From positions 1 to 12,485 of the forward strand of contig JAHEXM010000010.1 in assembly GCA_023252115.1 (NCBI GenBank): 12,485 bases of DNA, written 5' to 3'. Shown here one piece after another: positions 3,302 to 5,693 of the stretch. The DNA comes from Micrococcales bacterium (lineage in GTDB: Bacteria > Actinomycetota > Actinomycetes > S36-B12 > UBA10799). The notes below the pieces were generated by a model, which was not told the DNA's origin, did no database searches, and worked only from the letters and a program-made list of their open reading frames with translations. The position numbers and the translations under genes were made by a program. Position 1 is the stretch's first letter, and every line of letters begins with the position of its first letter.

Positions 3302-4188
3302 GCAAGACTCGCATGCTGGCATGCGACCTCGACGGCACGCTGTTGATGCCCGACGGTTCGCTTTCACCGCGCACACTTGCAGCGCTGGATGCCGCACGTG
3401 ATTCGGGTTTGCTGGTGGCAATGGTTACCGGGCGACCACCACGGTGGCTATCACCAGTCGTTCATCAGTCCGGGTGGCATGGGCTTGCAGTCGCTGCAAA
3501 CGGCGCGGTGATCGCCGACCTCAATGTTGGTCGGGTCATGCACACCTTCCCGATTGATACCGATGTAGTACACGAGACTGTTACCCGCTTGCGCAAGTCA
3601 ATACCGGGCGTTGCATTTGCCGTTGAACACATCGAGCAGGGTCAACGGATACCGGATGCGCCACCCGATCTGCCGTTCCCGCTTTTGCGATCAGTTGGTC
3701 CGCCGGCTGAATTCGGCCATGAGCCCGGTTACCAGCCGCGCTTACCAGTCGCGCCGCATACACCGATTGGTGTCATCGACGAACTGATCGCGTCGGGCAA
3801 TGTCGTTAAGTTGCTCGCGCGTGCGCCTGCGGATAGCGAACACGATGCCGACGAAACAATGCAGCGCGCTCAAGACGAACTTGCCGAACTGGTGACTGTC
3901 ACACACTCAAGCAATGAATCGGTGTTGCTCGAGATATCGAAGATCGGTATTTCGAAAGGCACTGGAGTTTCTTGGCTGGCCAACGAACACAACATTGACC
4001 AAAGTGACGTAATCGCAGTCGGAGACATGCCTAATGACATTCCGATGTTGCAGTGGGCAGGACAGGGATACGCGATGGGCAACGCCCATCAATTAGTCAG
4101 AGACAGCGTTGGTCCCGAGCATGTTGTGCCGCCGAACACTGATGACGGCGTTGCGCAATTGATTGAATCACTACTGCACAAGCAGTGA
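3298..4188 (+). CDS. HAD-superfamily phosphatase, Cof type
   Basis: The 296-residue soluble hydrolase has all four HAD motifs. Motif I is DLDGTLL (residues 10-16), with nucleophile Asp10 and acid Asp12. Motif II is the Thr in MVTGRPP (42-48). Motif III is the Lys of SKGTG (219-223). Motif IV is GDMPND (242-247). The long insert between motifs II and III is a C2 cap, which places it in the Cof/YidA group. These enzymes dephosphorylate sugar phosphates, flavin or other cofactor phosphates; the substrate is not readable here. The start is TTG 3298, giving a TTGA overlap with the serS stop and suggesting translational coupling. ATG 3313 is an in-frame alternative but would begin only four residues before the catalytic Asp. 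A serS-HAD pair is common in Actinobacteria. Confidence 0.9.
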
Positions 4189-4239
4189 TAGAAGTCGGCA
4201 CATCGCCACATCACAAATGCACTACCGCCTCGGTTCTGC

Positions 4240-4367
4240 CCTGTGGAAAAGAAAATGGTGTGAGGACTGTCACGGGGCATTTCGGACACTTTTTGCTGCA
4301 TTGCACGAATCCCTTGGGGGACAACGGAAATCGTGCGTTACCTGTCTCACACAAAGTAATCCACAGG
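4240..4367. repeat. Nested inverted repeats, candidate structured RNA or cruciform
   Basis: Four pairs of arms are nested in the right order: CCTGTGGA (4240-4247) with TCCACAGG (4360-4367); GTGTGAG (4258-4264) with CTCACAC (4346-4352); GCACGA (4303-4308) with TCGTGC (4331-4336); and TCCC (4310-4313) with GGGA (4318-4321) closing a TTGG loop. The internal loop between the two outer stems is A-rich on both sides. No known RNA family was recognised; SRP RNA and tRNA hallmarks are absent. Confidence 0.45.
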
Positions 4368-4381
4368 CAACTTTGCAGAAC

Positions 4382-4409
4382 TTGCACAAAGACAAAGCCG
4401 TGTTAGTTT
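4382..4409 (+). promoter_or_regulatory. Candidate promoter for the NlpC/P60 gene
   Basis: TTGCAC (4382-4387) and TAGTTT (4404-4409, fitting TANNNT) are separated by 16 bases. A start near 4416 would give a 5' untranslated leader of about 210 bases that contains the whole second hairpin block. Both boxes are only partial matches. Confidence 0.3.
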
Positions 4410-4424
4410 CGAAACGTCGTTCGT

Positions 4425-4610
4425 CCGAAGCGCCGAGACCGGTGCGCGAGCGATCCGCTGAGCAGCGCTAGTTGGAGTTCCGGTACGGAATCCGGACTTG
4501 TCACTAGTGCACCGGGGACCAATCTCGATTACCTGGGCCGGTTCGGTTTTCCGAACTCCGGGCATTGCTACGTGCCCTTGCCCATGTACTCCCGGCAAGC
4601 GCCGTTTACC
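4425..4610 (+). ncRNA. Candidate structured leader, possibly a divergent ydaO (c-di-AMP) riboswitch
   Basis: The transcript could fold into several stems. GCGCC (4430-4434) pairs with GGTGC (4441-4445). GGA/TTCCG (4474-4482, one bulged G) pairs with CGGAATCC (4486-4493). GTTCGG (4541-4546) pairs with CCGAAC (4551-4556) over a TTTT loop. GGGCA (4560-4564) pairs with TGCCC (4573-4577). CTTGCC (4577-4582) pairs with GGCAAG (4594-4599). Three pieces recall the ydaO-yuaA consensus: GCGCCGAG at the 5' side, ACCGGGGACCAA (4511-4522) for the GGGGACC block, and CCCGGCAAGCG near 4591-4601 for the 3' end. The GGGGTGAATC and CAGCTAACC blocks needed for c-di-AMP binding are not visible. The position before a cell-wall hydrolase is typical of this riboswitch class. 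It may be a variant, a decayed copy or an unrelated element. Confidence 0.35.
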
Positions 4611-4616
4611 AAGGAG
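4611..4616 (+). promoter_or_regulatory. Strong Shine-Dalgarno of the NlpC/P60 gene
   Basis: AAGGAG ends 10 bases before ATG 4627 and decides that start over the upstream in-frame TTG 4498. The extended GGAGTT (4613-4618) is fully complementary to AACTCC at 4554-4559 and partly to ACTCC at 4588-4592, so the site could be masked by the leader. Confidence 0.8.
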
Positions 4617-4626
4617 TTGTTACTAC

Positions 4627-5190
4627 ATGCGTGCACTCACACGTCGTACTGCCGTCGGAGTATCGGCCGCAGCCGTCGGTGTGGCACTTCTGCCAATTGC
4701 CGGTGCACAAGCCGAAAGCGGTGTTCCATCAACTGAACCAGCTGCCCCCGCAGTCGTTGCTCCCCCCGTCGTGCCAGGACCAACTCGCGCCGAGCTGCGT
4801 CACGCACGCGCTGAAGTCTTACGTAAGAAACTCATTCAACTTGCGAAATACAAAGGCCGCACTTGGCAATACGTTGCTGGAGGTGCAGGGCCGAACAGCG
4901 GTGATTGCAGTGGTTTTGTGATGTATCTGGTCAAGAAGACAACCCATCGCAACCTGCCTCACTTTTCAGGCGCCCAGATGCATGCCACAAAACGTGTGGC
5001 CAAGCGCAACCTTCTGCCGGGCGATCTATTGTTCTGGGGTTCGAATGGTGGACAACACGTCAGCATCTACATCGGTCACGGAAAGATGATCGGTGCGAAC
5101 AACCCCAGCCGCGATGTCGTGATCGAACCCATCCACAGTTCGTACTGGAGTCCGCGCTACGCAGGAGCTGGGCGCATCATTTTCGGATAG
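4627..5190 (+). CDS. Secreted NlpC/P60 (C40) peptidoglycan hydrolase
   Basis: The 187-residue preprotein begins with a classical signal peptide: RTRR-type basic start, hydrophobic core at residues 8-24, and cleavage likely after AGAQA (25-29). A Pro/Ala-rich linker (38-52) and a basic, probably helical stretch (54-78) follow. The C-terminal NlpC/P60 domain then runs to the end. It carries the catalytic Cys94 in SGDCSGFV, LLPGDLLFWG (129-138), and His144 in GQHVSIYIG. Such enzymes cut the peptide stem of peptidoglycan, usually between D-Glu and mDAP, during growth and separation. The third triad position, 12 residues after the His (His in Spr, Glu in RipA), is Gly156 in MIGANNP; Asn158 or Asn159 may replace it. 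ATG 4627 is preferred because it has AAGGAG 10 bp upstream and places the signal peptide at the N-terminus. The gene is monocistronic and converges with a DUF4446 gene. Confidence 0.92.
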   Translation: MRALTRRTAVGVSAAAVGVALLPIAGAQAESGVPSTEPAAPAVVAPPVVPGPTRAELRHARAEVLRKKLIQLAKYKGRTWQYVAGGAGPNSGDCSGFVMYLVKKTTHRNLPHFSGAQMHATKRVAKRNLLPGDLLFWGSNGGQHVSIYIGHGKMIGANNPSRDVVIEPIHSSYWSPRYAGAGRIIFG

Positions 5191-5212: not shown

Positions 5213-5693
5213 CCGAAGCACTCAGCGCATACGAGACTGCTTGCGTTTCTTCGGGCGTGAGATGTTCGGTTGCTCCGGCATTGACGCCTTTGGCGATGGT
5301 TTGGGATTCGCTGCGCCCACGTAAGCTGGTGAATACGACACCGTCTCCGCTGTCGTCGAGCAGCGCAGCGCTAAACGACAGCCGTCCGCTGAGTTCGCGG
5401 AAAGCGTCGTAGCGTACGACCGCAACATGACGGATCGAATGCGACATCTCGTCGCGCGTCACGTTCACCAGATCCGTCAAACCTTTTATCTGGGCGTTGA
5501 CTGAGTCAATGGCAGACACCCGCGCGAGCAGCGCCTCGACCACGTCGATGTCAGCGTCGGCAATGCGCCGGTGCTCACGCCGTGATTGCGCTGTTCGACG
5601 AAGGGCAGCGATAGATACGACCAAGGCCAAGATCGAAAGGACCATCGCGATGATGGCCAGGACTCCAACTGTCGAAGAACTAAGCCCACCCAC
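5202..5693 (-). CDS. DUF4446 membrane-anchored protein
   Basis: The 163-residue protein has one N-terminal transmembrane helix (about residues 9-31, VGVLAIIAMVLSILALVVSI), followed by a basic stop-transfer stretch LRRTAQSRREHRR. A probable coiled coil covers residues 45-88. The conserved core is HVAVVRYDAFRELSGRLSFS (89-108) with ALLDDSGDGVVFTSL (110-124) and GRSESQTIAKGV (126-137), which matches the DUF4446 family found in Actinobacteria and Firmicutes. Function is unknown. The topology implies a cytoplasmic or surface domain tethered to the membrane. The start is GTG 5693, with GTAGGG about 8 bases upstream. Only 11 bp separate its stop from that of the converging NlpC/P60 gene. Confidence 0.85.
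   Translation of the reverse strand: MGGLSSSTVGVLAIIAMVLSILALVVSIAALRRTAQSRREHRRIADADIDVVEALLARVSAIDSVNAQIKGLTDLVNVTRDEMSHSIRHVAVVRYDAFRELSGRLSFSAALLDDSGDGVVFTSLRGRSESQTIAKGVNAGATEHLTPEETQAVSYALSASGAD

Follow-up and report, generated by a model that had tools for sequence, protein, structure and literature searches.

A probable pocket-less descendant of a c-di-AMP riboswitch before an NlpC/P60 gene

The window analysed here, a stretch of 12,485 nucleotides (contig C385 of genome G000, whose assembly is 69% complete), contains a structured leader directly before a gene for a cell-wall hydrolase of the NlpC/P60 family. Comparison with leaders of related genomes supports descent of this leader from a c-di-AMP riboswitch (ydaO, RF00379) that lost its ligand pocket. 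On sequence grounds it is a derived, pocket-less descendant and no member of RF00379. We lean, with moderate confidence, towards the reading that a former c-di-AMP OFF riboswitch has become a fixed structured leader in a lineage probably without c-di-AMP. The locus offers a natural experiment on what becomes of a riboswitch when its signal disappears, and one family of genomes spans intact aptamers, weakened ones (G006), a frame without pocket (the window) and leaders in which only a 5' hairpin, H1, is found (G002 and G005).

The leader and its locus

The preliminary description placed a leader of about 210 bases before a cell-wall hydrolase gene, and the PF00877 match confirms that gene as NlpC/P60 (Table 1); by eye, its product carries a signal-like N-terminal segment. 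The gene order of the window is serS-HAD-leader-nlpC, so that this nlpC is serS-linked, and the same order is found in the riboswitch-bearing genome G001. At least four stems had been claimed for the leader, and the MFE fold of 4414-4616 has more (H1, P2, P3, P4 and P5). Four distant protein relatives in genome contigs and one in viral contigs were left out of the comparison.

Table 1. Features of the leader, its promoter region and the downstream gene, in window coordinates
Feature	Position	Strand	Basis and remarks
CCTGTGGA box, upstream copy	4240..4247	+	8-mer or complement, -161 to -164 from -10, in 3/12 leaders (window, G009, G005)
CRP/GlxR-like palindrome TGTGA-N6-TCACG	4259..4274	+	1 mismatch, p 0.013
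TCCACAGG box, promoter-proximal	4360..4367	+	such a box at -40 to -54 in 7/12 leaders, window included
Probable -10 TAGTTT	4404..4409	+	inferred; hexamer chosen by eye
Structured leader, ~210 nt	about 4416-4626	+	upstream of NlpC/P60 ATG 4627
H1, 5' hairpin	4417..4453	+	outer 4417-4423/4447-4453, inner 4430-4435/4440-4445; folding and covariation in relatives
P1, 5' strand CGCU	4456..4459	+	pairs with 4598-4601; placed by R1 alignment, 4/4 pairs
P2	4465..4510	+	4465-4472 with 4503-4510; 8/8 pairs in MFE
CCGGG, 5' strand of RF00379 [ ] helix	4512..4516	+	pairs with CCCGG 4591-4595; 5/5 pairs
Predicted three-way junction at place of ligand core	4534..4584	+	P3 4534-4538/4580-4584, P4 4541-4546/4551-4556, P5 4560-4564/4573-4577
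ACUCC, predicted anti-Shine-Dalgarno, overlapping [ ] strand	4588..4592	+	pairs with GGAGU 4613-4617
CCCGG ([ ] 3' strand) and AGCG (P1 3' strand)	4591..4601	+	R1 alignment
Shine-Dalgarno AAGGAG	4611..4616	+	read from sequence; 10 nt to ATG
NlpC/P60 cell-wall hydrolase gene	4627..5190	+	PF00877, 1.4e-23; ATG 4627

Kinship with c-di-AMP riboswitches

When all Rfam families were searched against the window, none reached its cut-off, HgcC staying below its own at E 0.46. The RF00379 search proposed in the preliminary description gave no match in the leader: the model was absent from 4100-4700 at E up to 10 (one unrelated match was returned) and, when more sequence was scanned at E up to 5, from the window, and the leader does not reach the Rfam cut-off of 38 bits. 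The preliminary description is confirmed in part. The two fragments ACCGGGGACCAA at 4511-4522 and CCCGGCAAGCG at 4591-4601 are both present as described; ACCGGGGACC was matched without mismatch and the relatives' CCCGGGAAGCG with 1 mismatch, each equalled by 1 of 300 dinucleotide shuffles. A third segment, GCGCCGAG (4430-4437), had been read as a ydaO fragment and is instead the inner strand of the separate hairpin H1. The repeated AAGCGCCG in the leader was taken, by judgement, as chance.

The blocks that contact the ligand are missing, as had been claimed. The best approach to GGGGCGAAUC in the leader has 2 mismatches, which 13% of shuffles do as well, and the best approach to GUCAGCUAACC has 4, which 72% of shuffles do as well, so that both lie within the shuffle range. 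The core blocks GGGGYGAAUC and GUCAGCUAACC are mostly invariant in 14 relatives; the residues that we take to form the pocket were assigned from conservation in the RF00379 model and in the relatives.

Within the window's family of 11 genomes, RF00379 was found directly before NlpC/P60 homologues in G001, G004, G006 and G008-G010. It precedes nlpC twice in G001 (89.4 and 88.7 bits), where a third copy stands before a more distant NlpC/P60 gene (78.8 bits); the scores before nlpC are 71.5, 72.0 and 75.3 bits in G008-G010 and 58.9 bits on contig C66 of G004, whereas the two matches of G006, a genome without disA, are weakened to 45.6 and 43.2 bits compared with 71.5-75.3 in its genus. By eye, the window and its relatives' leaders have in common, wholly or partly, the -10 element, H1, P1, ACCGGGGACC, the CCCGG-AAGCG end and the ribosome site. 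The window is like RF00379 in having the P1, P2 and [ ] strands in the same order, ACCGGGGACC and CCCGG-AAGCG, in its place before an NlpC/P60 gene and, when the leader is folded alone, in its predicted P3-P4-P5 topology. It is unlike RF00379 in having neither GGGGYGAAUC nor GUCAGCUAACC, in its short junctions, in the lack of an Rfam match and in that no diadenylate cyclase was found in its genome.

Fourteen leaders of the order, chosen by eye and not including the window, were aligned with MAFFT, and a covariance model, R1, was built from them. Over the 40 pairs of this alignment, 57 cells carry a change in both partners; shuffled controls average 21.9 and slid ones give 6-20. On the proposed covariation check, leaders of homologous genes do covary. 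In a search of 23 sources (128 kb), R1 aligns along its full length of 198 positions with 4414-4615 of the window (34.7 bits, E 5.6e-7), and this is its sole match in the G000 genome at E up to 0.01 (E 9.8e-6), in a scan whose strict filters left 14 of 394 first-look candidates to be scored. The window keeps 13 of 14 pairs of H1, 4 of 4 of P1, 4 of 4 of P2 and 5 of 5 of the [ ] helix, as counted in an alignment fitted to the R1 model itself; R1 skips P3-P5 and places nothing of the window in the core. A control model, R2, made from 11 leaders and restricted to the aptamer without H1, found no match in the window with default filters. With the filters off, the right place was the best of 27 matches, but a weak one (11.3 bits, E 0.02 in 4 kb). 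Together the R1 and R2 results make homology of the leader firm and homology of the aptamer frame moderate, with H1 carrying much of the score.

It is highly improbable, in our judgement, that the leader is an unrelated new structured element beside H1 and resembles the riboswitch by chance. Such an origin would explain the weak aptamer-only match and a core that is not alignable beyond chance, but not the two long motif matches in the right order, the spacing of H1 and P1, the gene order shared with riboswitch-bearing G001 or the R1 E-value in the genome. The preliminary description offered three readings (a variant class with another ligand, a decayed riboswitch, or a new element that arose in the same place), and its interpretation is supported in part: the evidence favours descent from a c-di-AMP riboswitch, and this descent argues against the new element.

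The c-di-AMP synthase and the fate of related leaders

Loss of c-di-AMP sensing is supported by the lost pocket blocks together with the absence of the synthase from its usual place. The DAC domain (PF02457) was present in 48 of the 97 order genomes searched; within the window's family it was not found in G000 (69% complete), G002, G003, G005, G006 and G007. According to PMC10117811, Actinobacteria have no DAC domain protein other than DisA. The order in G008 is radA-disA-hypothetical-mutY, and in G004 mutY, a hypothetical gene and disA are followed after about 1 kb by a radA-like gene. Without disA, the genes radA, hypothetical and mutY are contiguous in G005 (96% complete); G006 (98% complete), equally without disA, has radA, the hypothetical gene, one more open frame and mutY, and in G003 radA and mutY stand about 800 nt apart. 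By eye, G000 has a GGDEF-type gene after radA and, on a separate contig, pilin-like genes beside the hypothetical-mutY pair; disA is not at the usual radA/mutY place in this 69% complete assembly. From these gene neighbourhoods and domain searches, the window's genome seems to have lost the enzyme that makes c-di-AMP. At least one further loss of disA is likely, since G006 groups with disA-bearing G008 in both the RadA and the SerS tree; the order of G000, G002 and G005 is not resolved in these trees. As a side observation, the sequence immediately after radA on contig C73 of G000 (L102, 2517-8289), the spot at which disA would be expected, holds, by eye, a chemotaxis-type cluster with a GGDEF response regulator and CheR-, CheB-, CheW- and CheA-like genes.

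Riboswitch and cyclase co-occur: across the 97 order genomes, RF00379 exceeds its cut-off in 36 of the 48 genomes with DAC versus 3 of the 49 without (Fisher p 7e-13, uncorrected for kinship and calculated on incomplete assemblies). The three are G006, G025 and G053, and 12 of the 48 DAC-bearing genomes are without RF00379. One could also suppose that the leader remains a c-di-AMP riboswitch whose pocket has diverged strongly. Its helix order, which is that of RF00379 when the leader is folded alone, would agree with this; the pocket blocks are absent, however, RF00379 gives no match up to E 10 and no synthase was found, and we give this reading next to no credence.

Scanning 166 order genomes with R1 under strict filters gave matches at E up to 0.01 in 53 of them. 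Besides the window, 49 match loci were inspected, namely 30 of the best and 19 low-scoring ones. A pattern search within the locus found both core motifs in 34 of the 49; of the other 15, 14 match RF00379 (13 over the cut-off and G034 below it), and the last, G006a, does so with 45.6 bits. Beside these 49 loci of the 166-genome scan, the window leader is the only one found with the frame and no core, and the same genomes yielded, under strict filters, no second member of a variant class sharing an altered core.

The serS-linked nlpC genes of G002 and G005 leave no room for a HAD gene, and in 401 nt searched at each locus R1 finds H1 only (12.8 bits, E 3.6e-4 in G002; 15.2 bits, E 9.4e-5 in G005). 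G004 has the window's gene order, across two contigs sharing an exact 127-nt overlap; disA is still present there, and an intact riboswitch precedes its other nlpC. On the coding strand of its serS-linked leader region R1 scores no higher than -0.5 bits, and on the opposite strand 3.9 bits; no structural homology was found, not even H1 being picked up by R1. As this region gives no such match despite the presence of disA, loss of the pocket is not strictly tied to loss of disA, and at the serS-linked locus it may precede or be independent of it. Two minor observations concern other genomes. On contig C11 of G034 (L156), where no DAC was found, RF00379 reaches 30.3 bits with the GGUGAAU side altered and CAGCUAAC kept, a possible case of independent riboswitch decay. 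In G005 (L072, 4805-4868), just after nlpC, a Thr_leader match of 36.8 bits, below the cut-off of 55, is possibly a terminator hairpin.

Predicted fold and proposed role of the leader

The fold energy of the entire leader gives z of -2.51 for 4400-4630 (2 of 200 shuffles), -2.04 for 4414-4616 (17 of 500) and -1.69 for 4455-4616, with H1 removed (29 of 500). For comparison, 20 other 203-nt pieces of the window were folded, one of them overlapping the leader: z falls within -1.37 to +1.59 in 19 and is -2.23 in the remaining one, a coding piece at 5491, so that the value for the leader as a whole is no more than suggestive. Individual domains are more conspicuous: z is -2.86 for H1, -4.41 for the P2 region 4463-4512 (0 of 500 shuffles) and -3.64 for 4517-4590, the core between the conserved CCGGG and CCCGG (1 of 500, and 7 of 3000 in a second set). 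P2 has a mean probability of 0.86-0.98 in 6 of 7 fragments and of 0.01 in the longest, 4416-4800. P1 and the [ ] helix are complementary, yet their probability is 0.07 or less when folded with neither ligand nor tertiary contacts, that of P1 being 0.05 or less in the leader folded alone.

The P3-P4-P5 junction is predicted with pair probabilities of 0.91-1.0 in 4414-4616. P3 falls to 0.27 in 4416-4640, and P3 and P5 to 0.13 or less in fragments reaching at least 4665; the predicted three-way junction is lost once at least 38 coding bases are folded along. In these longer fragments H1 keeps a probability of 0.95 or more, and P2 one of 0.97-0.98 in those ending no further than 4700. A junction of the same size occurred in 8 of 3000 shuffles, under thresholds set on the observed window fold, and in 131 of 3000 with looser stem lengths. 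The same core region in 8 relatives, 6 of them from DAC-bearing genomes, has z of only -0.15 to -1.16; high stability is therefore no mark of ligand binding. Neutral decay was simulated from 4 relatives, with 60 runs each, down to the window's alignment score: z of -3 or below was reached in 0, 3.3, 1.7 and 1.7% of runs, and the window's energy in 5, 6.7, 10 and 0%. The core sequence itself aligns with that of the relatives near chance, and its homology is not demonstrable.

These values bear on a variant riboswitch, in which new junction strands within the retained scaffold would bind another ligand. It would account for a core that looks non-random when the leader is folded alone, both in its z and in the rarity of the junction among shuffles, and that neutral decay seldom equals in z (0-3.3%) or energy (0-10%). 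Nevertheless we find it unlikely: it concerns a single sequence with no second member in the 166 order genomes, folding of fragments that extend to 4665 or beyond does not predict its junction, the connecting strands of 2, 3 and 2 nt leave little room for a ligand pocket, the core of the 8 relatives has no such z, and there is no candidate ligand. In a more specific form of this reading, the leader would be the earliest example found of a riboswitch class that arose from the c-di-AMP aptamer, with the outer frame kept and the inner junction rebuilt for another ligand. This appears to us quite improbable; if true, the cell-wall hydrolase would have stayed under RNA control after the loss of c-di-AMP.

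The leader might also be a passive relic, in which only the promoter, H1 and the ribosome site matter and the rest is a drifting former riboswitch. The serS-linked leaders of G002 and G005 with H1 only, that of G004 with not even H1, the match of DAC-less G034, down to 30.3 bits, and the modest z of the leader without H1 all point in this direction. Yet P2 and the core of the window both exceed shuffled sequences in stability, and 26 of its 27 frame pairs have been preserved, which makes this reading rather doubtful in our view.

The probable -10 TAGTTT stands 7 nt before the first stem, and its spacing to H1 is 7-8 nt in all 9 leaders measured; from this constancy, the RNA probably starts with H1, near 4416. 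A consensus scan of 4189-4700 returned no promoter and no terminator and did not pick up the proposed -10 promoter. The upstream comparison covered the window and the homologous regions L066-L077. In the window and 7 of the other 11 leaders compared, a CRP/GlxR-like site (TGTGA-N6-TCACA with 1 mismatch) stands 142-155 nt upstream of the -10; the two G001 leaders have such a site at 44-50 nt, G006b has one with 2 mismatches at 131, and G004 C137 has too little upstream sequence. The factor's name is inferred from C. glutamicum nlpC (PMC9960051). At the other end of the leader, pairing of ACUCC with GGAGU is predicted with a probability of 0.78-0.92 in six fragments that extend to 4626 or beyond, and pairing of ACUCC with GGAG only has 0.33 in 4414-4616. 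As ACUCC overlaps the [ ] strand, closing the old frame would open the ribosome site: enforcing P1 and the [ ] helix costs 7.8 kcal/mol and raises its predicted opening from 0.01 to 0.41. The same enforcement increases opening in G006a, G006b and G004b, decreases it in G008-G010 and G001a and leaves G001b unchanged, so that no switching rule common to the leaders follows. Two boxes about 120 nt apart, TCCACAGG and CCTGTGGA, flank the CRP/GlxR-like site, and the same pair occurs in G009 and G005; the box resembles part of a DnaA box.

In the fixed-leader reading that we favour, disA is gone from its usual place in this lineage, which probably produces no c-di-AMP; the strands of the pocket were lost, other sequence took the place of the core, and the leader would now work without a small ligand. 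The RNA would begin at H1, which, being 5'-terminal, could shield the mRNA end; P2 would fold stably, and the ACUCC-GGAGU mask over the ribosome site would set a fixed, modest or low level of translation. With no ligand to pay the predicted 7.8 kcal/mol, translation would be fixed low, adjustable control resting with the promoter and its conserved CRP/GlxR-like site. According to PMC9960051, the C. glutamicum nlpC riboswitch, RSnlpC, is an OFF switch for c-di-AMP whose action is most likely translational, and it lowers mRNA regardless of c-di-AMP; a ligand-free leader can therefore still matter. Likened by description, RSnlpC has the same gene family downstream, no canonical terminator and the idea of a CUCC anti-Shine-Dalgarno in common with the window; unlike the window, where the pocket and apparently the synthase are gone, it answers c-di-AMP in reporters (PMC9960051). 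The rpfB RNA switch of M. tuberculosis, as described in PMC6009663, is likewise a structured leader of a cell-wall hydrolase with no known ligand, but it is a transcriptional attenuator from some mycobacteria, and this comparison is one of descriptions only.

H1 lies outside the Rfam model, RF00379 pairing starting at P1, and has a mean predicted pair probability of 0.93-0.99 in 7 fragments of different length. When the 14 leaders were aligned by MAFFT without fitting to a model, 8 of its 15 pairs change on both sides, and its helices are paired in 90% and 77% of cells. All 14 pairs change on both sides in 49 leaders including the window (88% paired where letters are present) and again in 22 leaders from 21 loci outside the order (L172-L192; 90% paired); both sets were chosen and aligned by an H1-containing model, which favours H1, some rows are without one of its helices, and the 21 loci were drawn from the top scorers in the 132 genomes that gave matches. 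The hairpin precedes c-di-AMP riboswitches in these 7 other families of the class, and no mention of it was met in the open-licence papers searched. That H1 persists after the aptamer has gone suggests that it has a separate function, and H1 is a more general lead than the window leader itself. In the 22 leaders, H1 has 91 both-side cells versus 15-33 in slid and 27.7 in shuffled controls, and the whole structure in the 49 leaders has 336 versus 42-67 slid and 101 shuffled.
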